Source: Dokdonella sp. (GTDB taxonomy: Bacteria; Pseudomonadota; Gammaproteobacteria; Xanthomonadales; Rhodanobacteraceae). From it: DNA of 64,000 nucleotides. Positions 23,799-50,816 of this stretch are shown in pieces; the first letter of the stretch is position 1; the number at the start of each line of letters is the position of its first letter. The stretch is from assembly GCA_023228465.1 (NCBI GenBank), contig JALOBC010000013.1:21234-85233 (forward strand). Direction: 5' to 3'. The notes below the pieces were generated by a model. It had not been told where the DNA came from. It saw only the letters and a list, made by a program, of their open reading frames with translations, and made no database searches. Both the position numbers and the translations under genes were made by a program.

Positions 23799-23955
23799 GG
23801 AAAATCCGGGGCCGCCTGACGAAAATTGTCAGTCTCGGCCACGGCCGCGCGCTGGCCGGTGCGGGCCATGTTTCGAGTGACTTGAAAGGAACATCGGGCA
23901 ACGCGTTGAAATGCCGGAAACACACGGCAGCGATTGCGCACATCGATGGGAAAGT

Positions 23956-24324
23956 GGGAGTCGGCCGATAAGCCGGGTTCTGTCGTGGGCAGCCATTCCT
24001 CTAGATCCTGCGTCGCCGCAGGATTCGAGCAACCAACCCGGGAACGACGCGGGCCACGTCATGGTTCCCCTATTCGGTCTTGCTCCAGGTGGGGTTTGCC
24101 GTGCCGGTCTGTTGCCAGACTCGCGGTGCGCTCTTACCGCACCGTTTCACCCTTGCCTGATCCGCCGCATCCGCTTGCGCGGCGCAGGACGGCCATCGGC
24201 GGTCTGCTCTCTGTTGCACTTTCCGTCGGCTCGCGCCGCCCAGGCGTTACCTGGCACCTTGCCCTGTGGAGCCCGGACTTTCCTCGGCACCCTTGCGGGT
24301 GACGCGGCTGCCTGGCCGACTCCC
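23956..24324 (-). ncRNA. rnpB: RNase P RNA (bacterial type A)
   Basis: The 5' and 3' ends (GGGAGTCGGCC and GGCCGACTCCC) pair perfectly as an 11-bp P1 helix. Conserved core segments follow: GAGGAAAGTCCGGGCTCC near the 5' end (P3-P4 region), ACAGAGAGCAGACCGCC-type CR II, GGTAAGAGCGCACCG, and near the 3' end CAGAACCCGGCTTAT. Total length of about 369 nt fits type A. The RNA is the catalytic subunit that trims tRNA 5' leaders. Its position upstream of mraZ on the same strand is also seen in Pseudomonas relatives. Confidence 0.97.
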
Positions 24325-35777: not shown

Positions 35778-36854
35778 TCAGACGGCTGCGTGGCGCCGCA
35801 GGGCGAGGATGTCGCCGAGCAGGGCCTGCGCGGTCAGCTCGCGGCCGGCGCCCGGACCCTGGATCACCAGCGGCCGGGGCTGGTAGCGCAGGGTATGCAA
35901 CGCGAACAGGTTGTCGGTGTCGGCCAGGCGGGCGGCGGGATGGGCGGCCGACAGTGCGCGCAGGCCGACGCTGGCGCGCCCATCCGGTGCCAGCGCGGCG
36001 ACGTGGCGCAGCACCCGCCCACCTGCCGCAGCCGCGGCACGGCGGCGTTCCAGGCGCGCGTCGAGCTCGCTGGCGCGCGCGAGGAAGGCGTCGGCCGACA
36101 GGGCTCCCAGATGCACTGGCACCAGGCTTTCGACGCTCACCGCGGCGGGATCGATGCATTGGCCCGCGCTGCGTGCCAGGATCAAGAGCTTGCGCGCCAC
36201 GTCGGCGCCGCCCAGATCGATGCGCGGATCGGGTTCGGTGTAGCCGGCCGCCACCGCCTCGCGCAGCAGCGCGGAGAACGGACGGCTGCCATCGAAGTGG
36301 TTGAACAACCACGACAGCGAGCCGGACAGCACGCCCTCGAAAGCCAGCAGGCGATCACCGCAGGCGCGCAGGCGGCGCAGCGTTTCCAGCACCGGCAGGC
36401 CGGCACCGACCGTGGCGGCGTCGCCATAGCCGATGCCATCACGCGCCGCGTCGCGCACCGCGCTCCAGTCGGCCTCGCTTTCGCCGATCGCCGCCTTGTT
36501 AGCGCTGACCACGTGGTAGCCGGCACGCAGCCAGCGCGCATGGCGGCCCGCCAGCGCGACCGAGGCGGTGGCATCCACCACGACGCGCTGGCTGGCGCCG
36601 CTGGCATCCAGCGCCGCCAGCAGCGCGGCATCGTCGCGCGCCGTGCCGGCGGCCAGGCGCAACGGCGCCTGCGCCGGCGCCAGGCCCCGTGGCTGGACGC
36701 TCTGGCGCTGCGAATTGGCCACCCCGACCAGTTGCAGGCCGGCCGCCGCCGGCGTGCCGAACAGGCGCAGCAGGGCGCCGCCCACCCCACCGGTGCCGAG
36801 CAGGACCAGGGCCACGCCGGCCGTGCGGGCGTGCTGGTGGAGTTGCGCGCTCAT
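35778..36854 (-). CDS. hom: Homoserine dehydrogenase (monofunctional)
   Basis: The 358-residue enzyme reduces aspartate semialdehyde to homoserine. It shows the Rossmann loop LVLLGTGGVGGALLRL, VVDATASVALAGRHARWLRA, HVVSANKAAIGESE, and the catalytic region FEGVLSGSLSWLFNHFDGS with GYTEPDPRIDLGGADVARKL. It resembles the C-terminal half of E. coli ThrA without an aspartokinase domain and without an ACT domain, so threonine feedback is not evident. ATG 36854 overlaps the metB stop by ATGA. It is the third gene of metX-metB-hom, pointing to homoserine supply for methionine. Confidence 0.94.
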   Translation of the reverse strand: MSAQLHQHARTAGVALVLLGTGGVGGALLRLFGTPAAAGLQLVGVANSQRQSVQPRGLAPAQAPLRLAAGTARDDAALLAALDASGASQRVVVDATASVALAGRHARWLRAGYHVVSANKAAIGESEADWSAVRDAARDGIGYGDAATVGAGLPVLETLRRLRACGDRLLAFEGVLSGSLSWLFNHFDGSRPFSALLREAVAAGYTEPDPRIDLGGADVARKLLILARSAGQCIDPAAVSVESLVPVHLGALSADAFLARASELDARLERRRAAAAAGGRVLRHVAALAPDGRASVGLRALSAAHPAARLADTDNLFALHTLRYQPRPLVIQGPGAGRELTAQALLGDILALRRHAAV

Positions 36855-38029
36855 GCGCAACTGCGCACGCGGCTGCAACGCTCGGCGCGTGCCAGCGCGG
36901 CGCCGAGGTCGGCGACGAGATCATCGCCATCCTCGATGCCGACCGACACGCGCAGCAGCGCCTCGCCGATGCCGGCCTGACGGCGCGCCGCGGCGTTCAT
37001 GGCAGCATGCGTCATGCTCGCCGGATGCGCGATCAGGCTCTCCACGCCGCCCAGCGACTCGGCCAGCGAGAAGTGCTGCAGGCCATCGAGAAAGGCGCCC
37101 ACCGCGGCCACGCCGCCGGCCAGCTCGAAGCTCAACATGGCGCCGAAGCCATCCTGCTGGGCCAGCGCCAGCGTGTGGCCCGGATGCGTTGCCAGGCCCG
37201 GCCAGTGCACGGCACAGACGGCCGGGTGGCCGGCGAGCAGCGCGGCGATCCGCGCCGCATTGGATTCGTGCGCGCGCAGGCGCGGCACCAGGGTGCGTAG
37301 CCCGCGCAGGGTAAGGAAACTGTCGAACGGGGCGCCGGCCAGGCCCAGGCAGTTGGCCCACCAGGCAAGCTGATCGAACACACCGGCTTCCCTGGCCACC
37401 ACGGCGCCGCCGACCACGTCGCTGTGGCCGTTGATGTACTTGGTGGTGGAATGCACGACCAGGTCGGCGCCGAGCGTCAGCGGGCGCTGCAGGGCTGGCG
37501 AGAGGAAGGTGTTGTCCACCACGCACAGCGCGCCGACGGCTTGCGCGCCGGCGGCCACTGCGCGCACGTCGGTGATGCGCAGCAGCGGATTGGATGGCGT
37601 TTCCACCCACACCAGATCCGGCGCGTCGGCCAGGCCCGCGGCCAGGCAGCGCGGGTCGGTGAGATCGCCAAACCGGACACGGAAGCGGGCCTTCCTGGCC
37701 CAGCCGTCGAGCAGGCGCCAGGTGCCGCCATAGCAGTCGTGCGCGGCCAGCACCAGACCGCCAGGCGGCACCTGTTCGAGGACCAGCGCGACAGCGGCCA
37801 TGCCGCTGGCGGTGACGACGGCGCCCGCACCCTGCTCGGCGGCGGCCAGGGCGCTGCCAAGCTGGTCGCGGGTCGGGTTGCCACTGCGCGAATAGTCATG
37901 GGTGCGCGGGCGGCCCAGCCCTTCGAAGGTGTAGTTGGTGCTCAGGTGCAGCGGCGGCACGACGGCGCCGTGCTGAAGGTCCGATTCGAGGCCGGCGCGT
38001 ACCGTGCACGTGGCGAGGGCCACGCTCAC
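36851..38029 (-). CDS. metB: Cystathionine gamma-synthase
   Basis: The 392-residue PLP enzyme of the Cys/Met metabolism family joins activated homoserine with cysteine (or sulfide). It shows TNYTFEGLGRPRTHDYSRSG, TASGMAAVALVLEQV, VWVETPSNPLLRITDV, CVVDNTFLSPALQ and the PLP lysine in HSTTKYINGHSDVVGG. By sequence alone it could also be an O-succinyl(acetyl)homoserine sulfhydrylase. It starts with GTG 38029 in a GTGA overlap with metX, supporting a direct link to the product of that gene. Confidence 0.94.
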   Translation of the reverse strand: MSVALATCTVRAGLESDLQHGAVVPPLHLSTNYTFEGLGRPRTHDYSRSGNPTRDQLGSALAAAEQGAGAVVTASGMAAVALVLEQVPPGGLVLAAHDCYGGTWRLLDGWARKARFRVRFGDLTDPRCLAAGLADAPDLVWVETPSNPLLRITDVRAVAAGAQAVGALCVVDNTFLSPALQRPLTLGADLVVHSTTKYINGHSDVVGGAVVAREAGVFDQLAWWANCLGLAGAPFDSFLTLRGLRTLVPRLRAHESNAARIAALLAGHPAVCAVHWPGLATHPGHTLALAQQDGFGAMLSFELAGGVAAVGAFLDGLQHFSLAESLGGVESLIAHPASMTHAAMNAAARRQAGIGEALLRVSVGIEDGDDLVADLGAALARAERCSRVRSCA

Positions 38030-39060
38030 CGGCGGTCTCCGGGCCGATCAAGGATGTCCTGCAGCAGCGCACCCAGGCGCAGCGGCTCCTTGAGGAAGGC
38101 GTCGTGGCCATAGGGGGAATCGATGACGTGCAGCGTGGCGGCGGTACCGCAGCGGCGCTGCAGCTCGCACAGGTCGGCCAGCGGGACGACGCGGTCCGAG
38201 GCGATGCCGATCAGGGTGGTGGGAATGCCGATGGCTTCCGGGCTGACTGCGTGCAGGTCGATCGATTCGGACAGGGCAAGGAAGCGCCCGGCATCGAAGC
38301 GTTCGGCAAAGCGCGCGCCGGCATGCGCCAGCCAGGCTTCCTCGGCGAAACGGAAGCGCCCATCCGCAAAGACCGGTGCGCCCGCACAGCGTTCGGCGAA
38401 TTCGCGCTCGCTGCGGTAGGTGGTCATTGCCAGGCGCCGCGCCAGATCCAGGCCGGCCGCGCCATCGCCGAGCCGCTCGGCGAGGCGTACGATCTCGCGC
38501 TGGAGGTTGCGCAGGGCCGTGCTCAGCGGGTGGGCGCGATGCGCGCCGGCGATGGCGACCAGGTGACGCGCATGCGCCGGATGGCGGGCCGCGAAGGCCA
38601 GCCCGACCATCGCACCGTAGGAGGCACCGACGAAGGCGTGCGCCTGGCGGATGCCGAGGGTGGCGAGCAGGGCCGCCAGCGCGTCGGCCTGGTCGGCGCT
38701 GTCCACGGCCTGCACAGCGCCCAGATCGGCCCGCTCCAGCCAGTCGATGCCGAGCACCGCGTAACGCGTGGTGTCGATGGCGCGTCCGGCACCGACGATG
38801 TCCTCCCACCAGCCGCAGCCGCCCTGCGCGGCGTTGCGGTCGGCGGAGATGCCGCCCTGGACGATGATCACGGGTGCGCCAGGTGCCCCATACAGGGCAA
38901 AGCGCACGCGCACCTGGCGCCAACCGTCGCCGTGGCGCGGGTCGAGGCGCACCAGGCGCTCGCCATGGATGCGGCCCACGCGCGCGAGATCGCTGGCTGC
39001 CACCGGCGAGGCCGGCAGGGTGTCGGGAGGGACTGGGCAGGCTTCGGCGTGCAAGGTCAT
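38026..39060 (-). CDS. metX: Homoserine O-acyltransferase MetX
   Basis: The 344-residue alpha/beta hydrolase activates homoserine at the first dedicated step of methionine synthesis. It shows VQGGISADRNAAQGGCGWWE, VGASYGAMVGLAFAARHPAH with the nucleophile serine (GASYGA), and the His of the triad in SPYGHDAFLKE. Xanthomonadales MetX enzymes of this type have been shown to use succinyl-CoA rather than acetyl-CoA; whether that holds here needs the substrate-pocket residues compared. GGAG lies about 8 bases before ATG 39060. The gene is preceded by a SAM-I riboswitch, so excess SAM should shut the operon. Confidence 0.94.
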   Translation of the reverse strand: MTLHAEACPVPPDTLPASPVAASDLARVGRIHGERLVRLDPRHGDGWRQVRVRFALYGAPGAPVIIVQGGISADRNAAQGGCGWWEDIVGAGRAIDTTRYAVLGIDWLERADLGAVQAVDSADQADALAALLATLGIRQAHAFVGASYGAMVGLAFAARHPAHARHLVAIAGAHRAHPLSTALRNLQREIVRLAERLGDGAAGLDLARRLAMTTYRSEREFAERCAGAPVFADGRFRFAEEAWLAHAGARFAERFDAGRFLALSESIDLHAVSPEAIGIPTTLIGIASDRVVPLADLCELQRRCGTAATLHVIDSPYGHDAFLKEPLRLGALLQDILDRPGDRR

Positions 39061-39147
39061 CGCGATTCTCCGGTGATGCTCGCAAGCCACGGAGAACCGG
39101 AAACGGATTGCCGCGCAGGCACGGCGTGCCGCCGGCCTGCGCAACAA

Positions 39148-39267
39148 CTCATCTCTCGGTGGATCGCGCACCTGCGCGTCCCCGCGGGAGTTGGCACCGT
39201 GGCGCAGCTGGCGCTGCGCTGGTTGCCCCGGCGTCCAAGGGCCTGTCCCTCAGCCGGTCTTGATGAG
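39148..39267 (-). ncRNA. SAM-I (S-box) riboswitch controlling metX-metB-hom
   Basis: The minus-strand RNA begins CUCAUC and ends GAUGAG, forming helix P1. Between them are the S-box conserved blocks: AAGACCGGCUGAGGGA (P2 kink-turn region), GGGGCAACCAGCG (SAM-binding P3 and pseudoknot core), CACGGUGCCAACUCC (J3/4 and P4) and GAGAGAUGAG. It ends 88 nt before the metX start. No strong terminator with a U tract follows, so repression may act on translation or through Rho. SAM-I elements are mainly found in Gram-positive bacteria but are known in Xanthomonadales. Confidence 0.92.
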
Positions 39268-39278
39268 CAGTGGCGCGC

Positions 39279-39307
39279 ACTCTAGCGACCACAAAGTTCC
39301 ACGTCAA
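39279..39307 (-). promoter_or_regulatory. metX operon sigma-70 promoter
   Basis: Minus strand TTGACG (39307-39302), a 17-bp spacer, TAGAGT (39284-39279). Transcription should start near 39272, about 5 nt before the riboswitch P1 helix, which supports both calls. Confidence 0.8.
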
Positions 39308-39327
39308 TGGCCGTCTATATGGCCATT
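39306..39327. promoter_or_regulatory. Inverted repeat abutting the metX -35 box
   Basis: AATGGCC and GGCCATT are perfect 7-bp arms separated by 8 bp (GTCTATAT), and the repeat touches the -35 element of the metX promoter. It looks like an operator or activator site. It does not match the E. coli MetJ box (AGACGTCT tandem) closely. Confidence 0.5.
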
Positions 39328-48189: not shown

Positions 48190-48768
48190 CTACTTCTTCG
48201 CGGCTACCTTGGGCGCGGCCTTCTTCACAGCCGCCTTCTTCACGGCGGCCTTCTTGGCCGCCGGCTTCTTCGCCACGGCCGTCTTGCCCACCGTGGCCGT
48301 CTTGGCCTTCGCCGTCGTCTTCTTCACTGCGGCCTTCTTCACCGCTGTCTTCTTCACCACGGCCTTCTTGGCCGCCGGCTTCTTCGCCGCGGCAGTCTTG
48401 CCCACCGAGGCCGTCTTCGCCTTTGCAGTCGTCTTCTTGACCGCAGCCTTCTTGACCGTCGTCTTCGTTACCGCCTTCTTGGCGGCAGCCTTTTTCGCCG
48501 GCGCCTTCTTTGCAGCAGCCTTCTTAGTAGCCATATCTCGTCTCAGCTCCTCGTCAGTTGGCAATGGTTGCCCAGTGAAAGCATGAAGGAATGCTTCGCA
48601 TAGCAGATCGCTGTTGGTGGCGTGGCGCAGGTTGCCGACCTGGCGGCGGGTCCGTTCATCGGACAAGAGCCTGAGGACGTGGAGGGGAATCGAGACCGTG
48701 ATCTTCTTCACCGACCCGGACTTGCTGCCGTGATCGACGTAGGGAGCGATGAAGCGGGTTGCAGTCAT
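48190..48768 (-). CDS. MetJ methionine-repressor domain fused to histone H1-like Lys/Ala-rich tail
   Basis: Residues 1-78 match E. coli MetJ over almost its whole length: [20 protein letters not shown] with the DNA-contact strand KKITVSIP, then [19 protein letters not shown] and [16 protein letters not shown], the segments that form the ribbon-helix-helix dimer and SAM pocket. MetJ normally ends near residue 105. Here the last helix is replaced by about 113 residues composed almost only of Lys, Ala, Thr and Val, with a 38-residue (114-bp) tandem unit beginning at residues 106 and 144, like bacterial histone H1 homologues. An internal ATG at 48534 (residue 79, [12 protein letters not shown]) could give a free H1-like protein. 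It should bind DNA, with SAM as likely corepressor. ATG 48768 follows a good promoter. Confidence 0.93.
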
Positions 48769-48800
48769 GATTCCTTGGTTGTTTTGTCACGCCGGCGCCG

Positions 48801-48829
48801 AAACTATTACTGTCCATTCGGCGTGTCAA
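48801..48829 (-). promoter_or_regulatory. Promoter and inverted repeat upstream of the MetJ-H1 gene
   Basis: Minus strand TTGACA (48829-48824), 17-bp spacer, TAGTTT (48806-48801). A 7-bp inverted repeat CGCCGAA / TTCGGCG (48796-48802 and 48817-48823) covers the -10 and the spacer up to the -35, the right place for an autoregulatory operator. The -35 is perfect, the -10 weak. Confidence 0.6.
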
Positions 48830-49203
48830 CAGGTTTTTTGAGACGAAACAAGAAGTTCCTCGCCGGGCTGTCAGACGATGTGCGAACCGCAGTCGGCGGA
48901 AAATCCCGTTTGGCCATCCATGCTTCTGGCCTTCCAAAATATTCCGCCGGGCAGCGCGAGCCGAAAAAAGCCAACAGGTACACGATCTTGCAGACAGGTG
49001 CCGTTCCGGTGCGCGGATGCAAGCACACGTGCACACGCGTTTGCGCGACGCGCACGGCGCTGGTTCCGCAGCGGACGAGGACGGATTCCTGCGACGAATG
49101 GCAGGTGAACGAAGTTGCCGGAAACACTGGCCGCTGGCGCAGGGATCCGGCCGCCGCACGCGGGCCGATCAGGGCCGATTGCACGTGCAGGACGCAGCTC
49201 GGC

Positions 49204-49237: not shown

Positions 49238-49633
49238 CTACTCGTCTTCCTCGATCGACTCGGCGTAGGCGTCCGGGTCGAGCAGTTCCTCGAGTTCCTC
49301 GGCCAGGTTGTCAGGCTTGATCTGCAGCACCCAGCCATCGCCGAAGGGGTCCTCGTTGATCGTTTCCGGCTTGTCACCCAGGGCCTCGTTCACTGCGAGG
49401 ACTTCGCCGGACACCGGCGCGTAGAGATCGGAGGCCGCCTTGACCGATTCGACCACCGCGCAGGCCATGCCGGCCTGGACATGGTCACCGACACTCGGCA
49501 GCTCCACGTAGACGATGTCTCCGAGCAGGTCCTGTGCATGGTCGGAAATGCCGACCGTCACCGTACCCTGGTCTTCGACGCGCGCCCACTCGTGGGATTT
49601 CATGAACTTCAGATCGCCGGGAATTTCTTGCAT
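49238..49633 (-). CDS. gcvH: Glycine cleavage system H protein
   Basis: The 131-residue lipoyl carrier shuttles the aminomethyl group of glycine between the P, T and L proteins. The lipoylation site is Lys65 in [12 protein letters not shown], with [18 protein letters not shown] and [12 protein letters not shown] around it. Residues 110-131 are very acidic, as usual. AGGA lies 7 bases before ATG 49633. It follows gcvT by 82 bp and is likely in one operon; gcvP is not in this window. Confidence 0.97.
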
Positions 49634-49715
49634 GGCTCGGATCCTGTAGCGGGTGCCGGGGAAGCGGATTCTAGCAACCGTGGCGCAGGTAAGCGACGGA
49701 TGACGACCGCGGAAT

Positions 49716-50816
49716 TCAGATGCCCTCGCGCGGCTGGCCGTCGCGCACGAAGGGATATTTGACGACACGCAGCGGCACCAGCTTGCCGCGGATGTCCACA
49801 TGTACGTCACTGCCCGCATCGACCGGCACGCGCGCGAACGCGATCGCCTTGCCCAGCGTCGGCGCAAAGATGCCGGACAGGATCTCGCCATCGCCCTTCG
49901 GCGTGACCACGCGCTGCCCGTGGCGCAGGACGCCTCGTTCGTCCATCACCACGCCGATCATGGTGCGCGTGACGCCCGCGGCCCTTTGCCGTTCCAGCGC
50001 GGCGCGACCGACGAAGTCACGGCCTGCGTCCAGGGCCACCGTCCAGGCCAGGCCCGCCTCCCAAGGCGTCACCGACTCGTCCATGTCCTGCCCGTACAGG
50101 TTCATGCCGGCTTCCAGGCGCAGCGTGTCACGCGCGCCGAGGCCGGCCGGGTGCACGCCGGCCTCGTGCAGGCGGTTCCACAGGGCGACCGTGGCTTCTT
50201 CCGGCACGATGATCTCGAAGCCATCCTCGCCGGTATAGCCGGTGCGCGCGACGAACAGCGACGCACCATCGGGGCCGGTGACCTCGATGGCGGCAAACCT
50301 GGCCAGCTTGTCGACCCGCGCCGCGTCCTGCGGCGCCAGCAGGCCGAGCACCCTGGCGCGTGCCGCCGGGCCCTGCACGGCGAGCATGCCGAAGTCGCGC
50401 CGCTCGCGCACCTCGACGCCAAACGATCTGGCATGGCGTTCGATCCACGCCAGGTCCTTGTCGCGCGTGGCCGCGTTCACCACCGCGCGATAGAACGTGT
50501 CGCCCAGGTAGTACACGATGAGGTCATCGATGATGCCGCCCTCGTCGTTGAGCATGCACGAGTACAGGGCCCTGCCGGTGAGCTTCAGCTTGTCGATGTC
50601 GTTGGCGAGCAGGTGGCGCAGGAAGTCCCGACAGCGATCCCCGTGCAGATCGACGACGGTCATGTGCGACACGTCGAACATGCCCGCATCGCGGCGCACC
50701 GCGTGATGCTCCTCGATCTGCGAGCCATAGTGGAGCGGCATGTCCCAACCGCCGAAGTCGACCATCTTGGCGCCAAGTGCGCGATGGCTTTCGTTGAGGA
50801 TGGTCTTTCTGCTCAT
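49716..50816 (-). CDS. gcvT: Glycine cleavage system T protein (aminomethyltransferase)
   Basis: The 366-residue tetrahydrofolate-dependent enzyme releases ammonia from the aminomethyl-lipoyl arm and forms 5,10-methylene-THF. It shows [38 protein letters not shown], the THF-binding aspartate region [14 protein letters not shown]-like (actual [16 protein letters not shown]), and [16 protein letters not shown]. Full length for the family. The 194-bp upstream region contains no recognised full glycine riboswitch. The unit feeds one-carbon metabolism, consistent with methionine genes nearby, but no shared regulation is evident. Confidence 0.97.

Follow-up and report, generated by a model that had tools for sequence, protein, structure and literature searches.

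A MetJ repressor fused to a histone H1-like tail in the Rhodanobacteraceae, with an element conserved at synonymous sites next to the domain junction

The window, a 64,000-nucleotide stretch of a Dokdonella sp. contig, encodes on its minus strand a 192-residue protein in which a MetJ domain runs into a lysine- and alanine-rich tail. The gene, its presumed expression signals and its upstream neighbours are located as follows:

48190..48768, minus strand: MetJ-H1 fusion ORF, 192 residues, ATG start (open reading frame)
48535..48768, minus strand: MetJ domain, residues 1-78, profile match 5-86 (PF01340, NF003622, 1cma)
48193..48534, minus strand: H1-like Lys/Ala tail, residues 79-192, Met79 first (composition; HC2 35 bits, cut-off 40)
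48772..48776, minus strand: AAGGA, Shine-Dalgarno-like, main start (sequence)
48801..48806, minus strand: -10-like TAGTTT, 17-bp spacer to TTGACA (sequence)
48824..48829, minus strand: -35-like TTGACA (sequence)
49238..49891, minus strand: ORF containing gcvH, upstream neighbour of the fusion gene (profile)
49716..50816, minus strand: gcvT (profile)

The fusion ORF contains no stop and no frame break. The sequence-only reading of this stretch had taken the first ~78 residues for MetJ and had proposed comparing residues 1-80 with the Pfam MetJ family; that search returns a match well over the cut-off (PF01340, residues 5-86, 7.1e-39, 132.2 bits, cut-off 25). The curated profile NF003622 reports 138.2 bits (cut-off 110), and the E. 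coli MetJ chains 1cma and 1mj2 align to residues 5-78, which bears the assignment out. The same reading had described a Lys/Ala/Thr/Val tail of H1-like composition, continuous with MetJ in one frame, and this description holds: the tail comprises 114 residues counting Met79 and is rich in these four amino acids. With HC2 (PF07382), hmmscan reports 35 bits over residues 78-192, below the cut-off of 40, while a six-frame search of the genome gives 59.8 bits for the same tail, the best of three hits in this genome, with a match that overruns the stop codon. The histone H1-like model NF038053 remains below its cut-off (31.9 bits vs 80), its position 1 aligning with residue 79. The AlphaFold model of the fusion is poor (mean pLDDT 49, pTM 0.16) and was set aside. 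Upstream of the gene, a TTGACA-N16-18-TA arrangement is found in 93 of the 93 regions compared among relatives. Of 73 relatives examined, 55 have a gcvH motif on the same strand at most 3 kb upstream of metJ-H1, which may point to a link with one-carbon metabolism. Elsewhere in the window, a class A RNase P RNA occupies positions 23953-24323 of the minus strand. The conserved junction methionine, the synonymous-site element, the Met-box operators and the SAM-I riboswitch described below go beyond the sequence-only reading. Among the titles and abstract openings listed by searches of the open-licence PMC literature for MetJ together with Rhodanobacter, Dyella, Xanthomonas or histone H1-like, there was no report of a MetJ with a histone-like tail.

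Rhodanobacteraceae are a family of soil bacteria, and profile search finds MetJ in 227 of 233 of their genomes (226 over the cut-off), covering 26 of 26 genera. For comparison of the gene itself, 128 loci were collected and 13 outgroups set aside; the remaining 115, less three missed by the selection pattern (L092, L109 and L127), two cut before the junction (L024 and L098) and 16 duplicates, leave 94 ORFs, which are best-scoring hits rather than a random sample and are phylogenetically dependent. Whether relatives share the fusion had been left to be checked, and they do: the tail is complete in 89 of the 94 ORFs and all 89 carry it (34-309 residues counting the Met, median 93), while the other five are cut, so that three retain 20-110 residues of tail and two retain 5 and 2. 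The three loci missed by the pattern carry the tail on direct reading, as do L159-L161; L092, from a Luteibacter metagenome-assembled genome, has an in-frame stop inside MetJ. Counted by genome, the tails read cover 13 of the 26 genera; the remaining loci are identified by organism name. The family tails contain 37% Lys and 35% Ala, with 4 Asp and no Glu in 8472 residues, and a tail so nearly free of acidic residues is probably disordered. Since 94 non-redundant ORFs from many assemblies repeat this arrangement in the same frame, a sequencing error is excluded; the possibility that two separate genes were joined by faulty sequencing or assembly, for which nothing was found to speak, is thereby refuted and retains only a vanishing probability, and the fusion is confirmed as real.

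Outside the family the picture changes. A draw of 398 genomes of the order contains MetJ in 145, namely 125 Rhodanobacteraceae and 20 from three other families. The tail is absent from all 17 of the 20 other-family MetJs that were read, and the three unread ones have open frames of 80-88 residues. The search for the fusion across Xanthomonadales thus succeeded within Rhodanobacteraceae and failed for the 17 MetJs of other families. Among 350 genomes drawn from the class, four have MetJ: the window genome and three others, whose matches reach profile position 96-97 and which have no tail. As far as sampled, the Lys/Ala tail appears specific to Rhodanobacteraceae. Lys/Ala-rich extensions are also seen at the N-terminus of two other proteins, the ribosome silencing factor RsfS of the window's own genome (L208:504-1274) and DksA of the relative G148 (L211:398-1639), where the extension is long and DksA itself is matched from residue 295 of 414 onward.

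Sequence comparison indicates that the MetJ core is intact in the window protein, in agreement with the earlier recognition of its DNA-contact part. The protein has K23, T25, R40, N53 and S54, of which we take K23, T25 and S54 to be DNA-contact residues of MetJ, and it has E39, R42, R43 and E59. Among the relatives, K23 is kept in 93/94, T25, R40 and S54 in 94/94 each, N53 in 91/94, and R43, E59, H63 and F65 in 94/94 each. The excerpted text of a study of MetJ assigns DNA contacts to R40 and N53, and SAM contact or a relay function to E39, R42, R43 and E59, and predicts that mutation of E39 or R42 lowers co-repression (PMC2775130). These two residues are replaced jointly in 22 of the 94 relatives, which combine Leu39 with His (13), Tyr (5) or Glu (4) at position 42, while the other 72 have Glu39 with Arg42. 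Because of the predicted effect of such mutations, the Leu39 group may differ in its response to SAM. Locus L127, from a Rhodanobacter thiooxydans, belongs to the Leu39/His42 type.

At its C-terminal end, the PF01340 match of the window protein stops at profile position 86 of 97, and helix C, which we presume to be the last positions of the profile (to 97), is not recognisable. The sequence-only reading had placed the tail where the last MetJ helix should be; a tail does stand there, but the tail-less MetJs of the order likewise lose the match, at position 78-83 of 97. By profile match, helix C is thus not recognisable in the tail-less relatives of the order either, which argues against the tail being a simple replacement of it. 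The domain is filed as MetJ since the curated cut-offs are reached without helix C.

On the same strand as the fusion gene lies a met operon preceded by a riboswitch:

39302..39307, minus strand: -35-like TTGACG of the met operon (sequence)
39146..39269, minus strand: SAM-I riboswitch aptamer, RF00162 (73.6 bits vs gathering 44.4)
38026..39171, minus strand: metX ORF, homoserine O-succinyltransferase model NF006449 (372 bits, cut-off 296)
36851..38029, minus strand: metB, cystathionine gamma-synthase (TIGR02080 over cut-off)
35778..36878, minus strand: homoserine dehydrogenase-like (best models below their cut-offs)

The true start of metX is uncertain, because the 5' end of the ORF overlaps the riboswitch. 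Of 233 family genomes, 215 have the SAM-I riboswitch, and the genes behind it in four relatives (read in L168, L171, L173 and L176) are the same metX, metB and homoserine dehydrogenase-like genes. The window has the layout of its relatives, with riboswitch, operon and TTGACG, and its Met boxes are weak. For the related Xanthomonas, partial text of one paper reports X. campestris 8004 to be without metJ and its met operon to stand under a SAM-I-like leader (PMC6230763); a passage of another also describes this leader and remarks incidentally that MetR/MetJ regulation as in E. coli seems to be conserved in Xanthomonas (PMC7270179). A survey, again in its excerpted portion, found no MetJ regulon in four Xanthomonadales genomes (PMC4239095). 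Rhodanobacteraceae appear to have such a regulon, stacked on the SAM-I riboswitch.

Using a box matrix and threshold of our own (2-box score of at least 10), tandem Met boxes are detected ahead of the fusion gene in 87 of 93 relatives, always from -147 to -193, compared with 14/93 for reversed and 5/93 for shuffled controls. They lie ~100 nt upstream of the -35 of the gene, not over it. At the riboswitch, all 16 loci examined have their best 2-box beginning 50-63 nt ahead of the aptamer (mean score 23.8 vs 4.6), at or next to a TTGAC located at -35 to -38; these 16 loci are not random, as 8 of the 12 best-scoring come from one genus and the other 4 were fetched for their boxes. Release of MetJ from methionine control across the family is contradicted by the Met boxes of the relatives. 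In the window, by comparison, the corresponding sites are faint:

48912..48935, minus strand: weak tandem Met-box-like GGAAGGCC AGAAGCAT GGATGGCC, where the strong boxes of relatives sit (score not above chance)
39309..39324, minus strand: weak tandem Met-box-like GGCCATAT AGACGGCC, beside the met operon -35 (score not above chance)

The first scores 8.0 as three boxes (shuffled maxima 10.6-15.1) and the second 6.7 as two (shuffled maxima 13.3-18.0), so it is position, and only position, that marks them as candidate operators. Counted genome-wide with the consensus AGACGTCTAGACGTCT, allowing up to 3 mismatches, tandem boxes exceed the reversed control in 8 of 10 family genomes and in 1 of 6 tail-less genomes; they do not exceed it in the window's own genome (G000, 2 vs 3) or in G224 (13 vs 21). 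Because the operators of the window organism are degenerate, the repressor role may be relaxed there. A stronger version of this reading holds that in the window species the MetJ part has lost its methionine role, now left to the riboswitch of the met operon, and that the protein persists as a nucleoid protein. The degeneration of both operators and the genome-wide count of two against three in the control speak for it, as does the riboswitch itself; we nevertheless judge it rather improbable, since the checked contact residues are intact and the weak boxes stand at the expected places.

Further tandem boxes were seen between a CysB-like gene and cysG in the family genome G045 (L175, about 2296), and a similar arrangement was noted by eye in the tail-less relative G313 (L183, about 2481), so that this site is perhaps an old MetJ target. 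Others precede a TonB-dependent receptor-like gene in G148 (L172, about 3073), for which all models stay below their cut-offs.

The junction between the two domains carries a third set of features:

48538..48582, minus strand: junction element, with hardly any synonymous variation in the family (codon comparison)
48547..48552, minus strand: GAGGAG, Shine-Dalgarno-like, 12 nt before the internal ATG (sequence)
48532..48534, minus strand: ATG of Met79, proposed internal start codon (kept in relatives)

A methionine stands at the junction in 94 of 94 ORFs read to that codon, followed by Ala in 92; the pattern that selected these ORFs demands the Met, and its only two failures are loci cut by contig ends. 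The element, defined as the 15 codons ending at, or one codon before, the junction Met, has a pairwise synonymous identity of 0.84, compared with 0.49 for the 54 other MetJ codons and 0.61 for the tail, and the best other 15-codon stretch of MetJ reaches 0.59. Several of its codons are fixed (GGG 94/94, CCA 94/94 and 85/85, AGA 89/89, ACT 93/94, GAG-GAG 94/94), whereas elsewhere in these genes they make up a small to middling share of the codons for their amino acid (CCA 6, AGA 3, ACT 10, GGG 13 and GAG 34%). Third-position GC amounts to 0.37 within the element, against 0.69 ahead of it and 0.83 for the tail. The distance from AGGAG to the junction ATG is 12 nt in 85/94 ORFs and 9 nt in 9/94; with a looser set of motifs, GGGG or GGAG is seen 9-11 nt before the main start in many relatives, and 26 give no match. 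The 40-nt folding energy is weakest at the junction ATG (-3.9 kcal/mol). Together, these features are what an internal translation start would look like. Two points weigh against it: the AGGAG-ATG spacing of 12 nt is long, and a plain ribosome-binding site leaves unexplained an invariance that extends up to 48 nt upstream of the ATG, which needs something more than a Shine-Dalgarno site.

Searched as the pattern ACTGGGCAACCANTGCCAACTGANGAGGAGCTNAGA with up to 3 mismatches, the element is found in 222 of 233 family genomes and 25 of 26 genera, and within the order draw in 124 of 125 family genomes, none of the 273 others having it. Eleven family genomes lack it: six without a MetJ match, four of one genus, G213 and G217 among them, and G091. 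Two of these four were read (L027 and L209) and keep the Met and most of the element. G091 has ordinary codons and Val-Val instead of Met while keeping the tail, Met and element being absent together; it shares 5 of the 15 third positions of the element, whereas the 94 ORFs share 9-15. Nearly all genomes with the element have one copy, and the five with two (G008, G048, G129, G184 and G185) each also have two MetJ matches.

Several other origins for the element were considered and dropped. A dispersed repeat or phage site is at odds with the single copies, the absence from 273 other-family genomes and the lack of an exact match in viral contigs. A frameshift or overlapping gene fits poorly with a possible slippery TTTT run in only 77/94 ORFs and a -1 stop in 84/94, and no start codon was seen where the constraint begins. 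A promoter inside metJ was dismissed by eye only. Rfam returns no known RNA family at the junction, with three hits at E up to 5 elsewhere in the stretch. A +1-frame stop at a Leu codon occurs in 92/94 ORFs, for which we found no explanation.

The main competing account is that only the full-length fusion is made and that the element serves as an RNA structure, a site for an sRNA or a protein, or a programmed pause between the domains. An invariance reaching far upstream of any ribosome-binding site would suit it, and RNAalifold (37 sequences) proposes two hairpins, one (GGCA/UGCC) within the element and one preceding it, with L059 folding somewhat better than its shuffles (z -1.6). The covariation term, however, is only -0.7 kcal/mol, with double changes in 2 of 17 pairs, and neither the window (z 0.3 to 1.5) nor L087 (z -0.5) folds better than shuffles, so that a conserved RNA structure at the junction is not supported. 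Moreover, particular codons are kept and not merely rare ones (CCA not CCT, AGA not AGG), and G091 has lost element and Met together. We regard this account as rather unlikely.

The reading we prefer, and consider somewhat probable, is that of a SAM-dependent MetJ repressor with a DNA-binding tail, accompanied by a free H1-like protein made from the same mRNA. The MetJ core, which keeps its DNA- and SAM-contacting residues and carries the Lys/Ala tail at its C-terminus, would recognise the Met boxes before its own gene and before metX-metB-hom, where SAM-dependent transcriptional repression would act in series with the SAM-I riboswitch. Judging from its composition, the tail would contribute non-specific DNA affinity, which should stabilise or spread binding around the operators. 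A second reading of the mRNA from the Met79 ATG, after the conserved GAGGAG, would yield the free H1-like protein, and the methionine-feedback promoter would then determine how much of each protein, fusion and free tail, is made. The sequences directly show the fusion and its conservation, the Met boxes of relatives, the riboswitch and the synonymous constraint at the junction, from which SAM binding, repression, internal initiation and DNA binding by the tail are inferred. Against this reading stand the distance of the Met boxes from the -35 of the fusion gene, the faint operators of the window and the genome-wide box counts, the joint replacement of E39 and R42 in 22 relatives and the way the loci were selected; the synonymous identity of the tail (0.61) also exceeds that of the MetJ part, and G091 is a single case.

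A bolder extension makes metJ-H1 a nested two-protein gene, in which a 45-nt cis element of a new kind, embedded in the MetJ coding sequence and recognised by a factor, an RNA or the ribosome itself, would control internal initiation of a free H1-like nucleoid protein, the SAM level setting the supply of both repressor and chromatin protein. We advance it tentatively, as a somewhat doubtful conjecture.

Protein levels in a family member are in line with the repressor part of the preferred reading. In Rhodanobacter thiooxydans FW510-R12, according to partial text, MetJ increased with nitrate and four methionine enzymes decreased (PMC12146267). This fits the proposed repressor; it is correlational, the passage on MetJ is silent on a tail, and L127, from another R. 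thiooxydans, is of the Leu39/His42 type.

As for the partner of the tail, it could mainly be a polyanion other than DNA (RNA or polyphosphate), in the way suggested for AlgP granules. The excerpted source describes AlgP, with a 154-residue KPAA-rich region, as associating with polyphosphate granules (PMC9239181), and the Lys/Ala stretches on RsfS and DksA in Rhodanobacteraceae would agree with a partner other than DNA. Here, on the other hand, the tail is joined to a sequence-specific DNA-binding domain, and we think such a main partner rather improbable. Since Lys/Ala or lysine-rich tails occur on AlgP, PhaF and PgFur as well as on the RsfS and DksA of the family, the tail is best seen as an add-on that recurs on different proteins. 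The unusual part is that it has stayed joined to a metabolite repressor, with the element lying at the junction.

The locus thus presents a textbook metabolite repressor with a chromatin-like tail throughout a bacterial family. As tail-less relatives exist, the effect of a basic tail on a well-understood repressor is directly testable, and if the internal start is true, a single gene couples methionine feedback to the dose of a nucleoid protein.

Compared with E. coli MetJ (PDB 1cma; PF01340, NF003622), the fusion shares the core with its DNA- and SAM-contact residues and, in relatives of the window organism, Met boxes ahead of its own gene and of met genes. It differs in having no recognisable helix C, in its Lys/Ala tail of 34-309 residues, in acting presumably in series with a SAM-I riboswitch and in its proposed second product. 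Pseudomonas AlgP/AlgR3 and PhaF likewise combine a folded N-terminal part with a Lys/Ala/Pro C-terminal tail, but in the consulted portion of that source their N-terminal parts are not described as metabolite-sensing, sequence-specific repressors (PMC9239181). In Porphyromonas gingivalis PgFur, as far as the excerpt goes, a regulator also has a C-terminal lysine-rich region, needed in vivo and dispensable for promoter binding in vitro; it belongs to another family, its region is short (4- and 13-residue deletions), and the excerpt mentions no internal start (PMC6613475). Bacterial H1-like proteins (HC2 PF07382, NF038053) resemble the tail in composition, with NF038053 position 1 at residue 79, but these models describe whole proteins and the window tail lies below both curated cut-offs in hmmscan. 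Finally, the SAM-I riboswitch of X. campestris belongs to the same RNA family and likewise precedes the met operon; while strain 8004 is reported, in the partial text, to lack metJ (PMC6230763), the family of the window combines operator and riboswitch.
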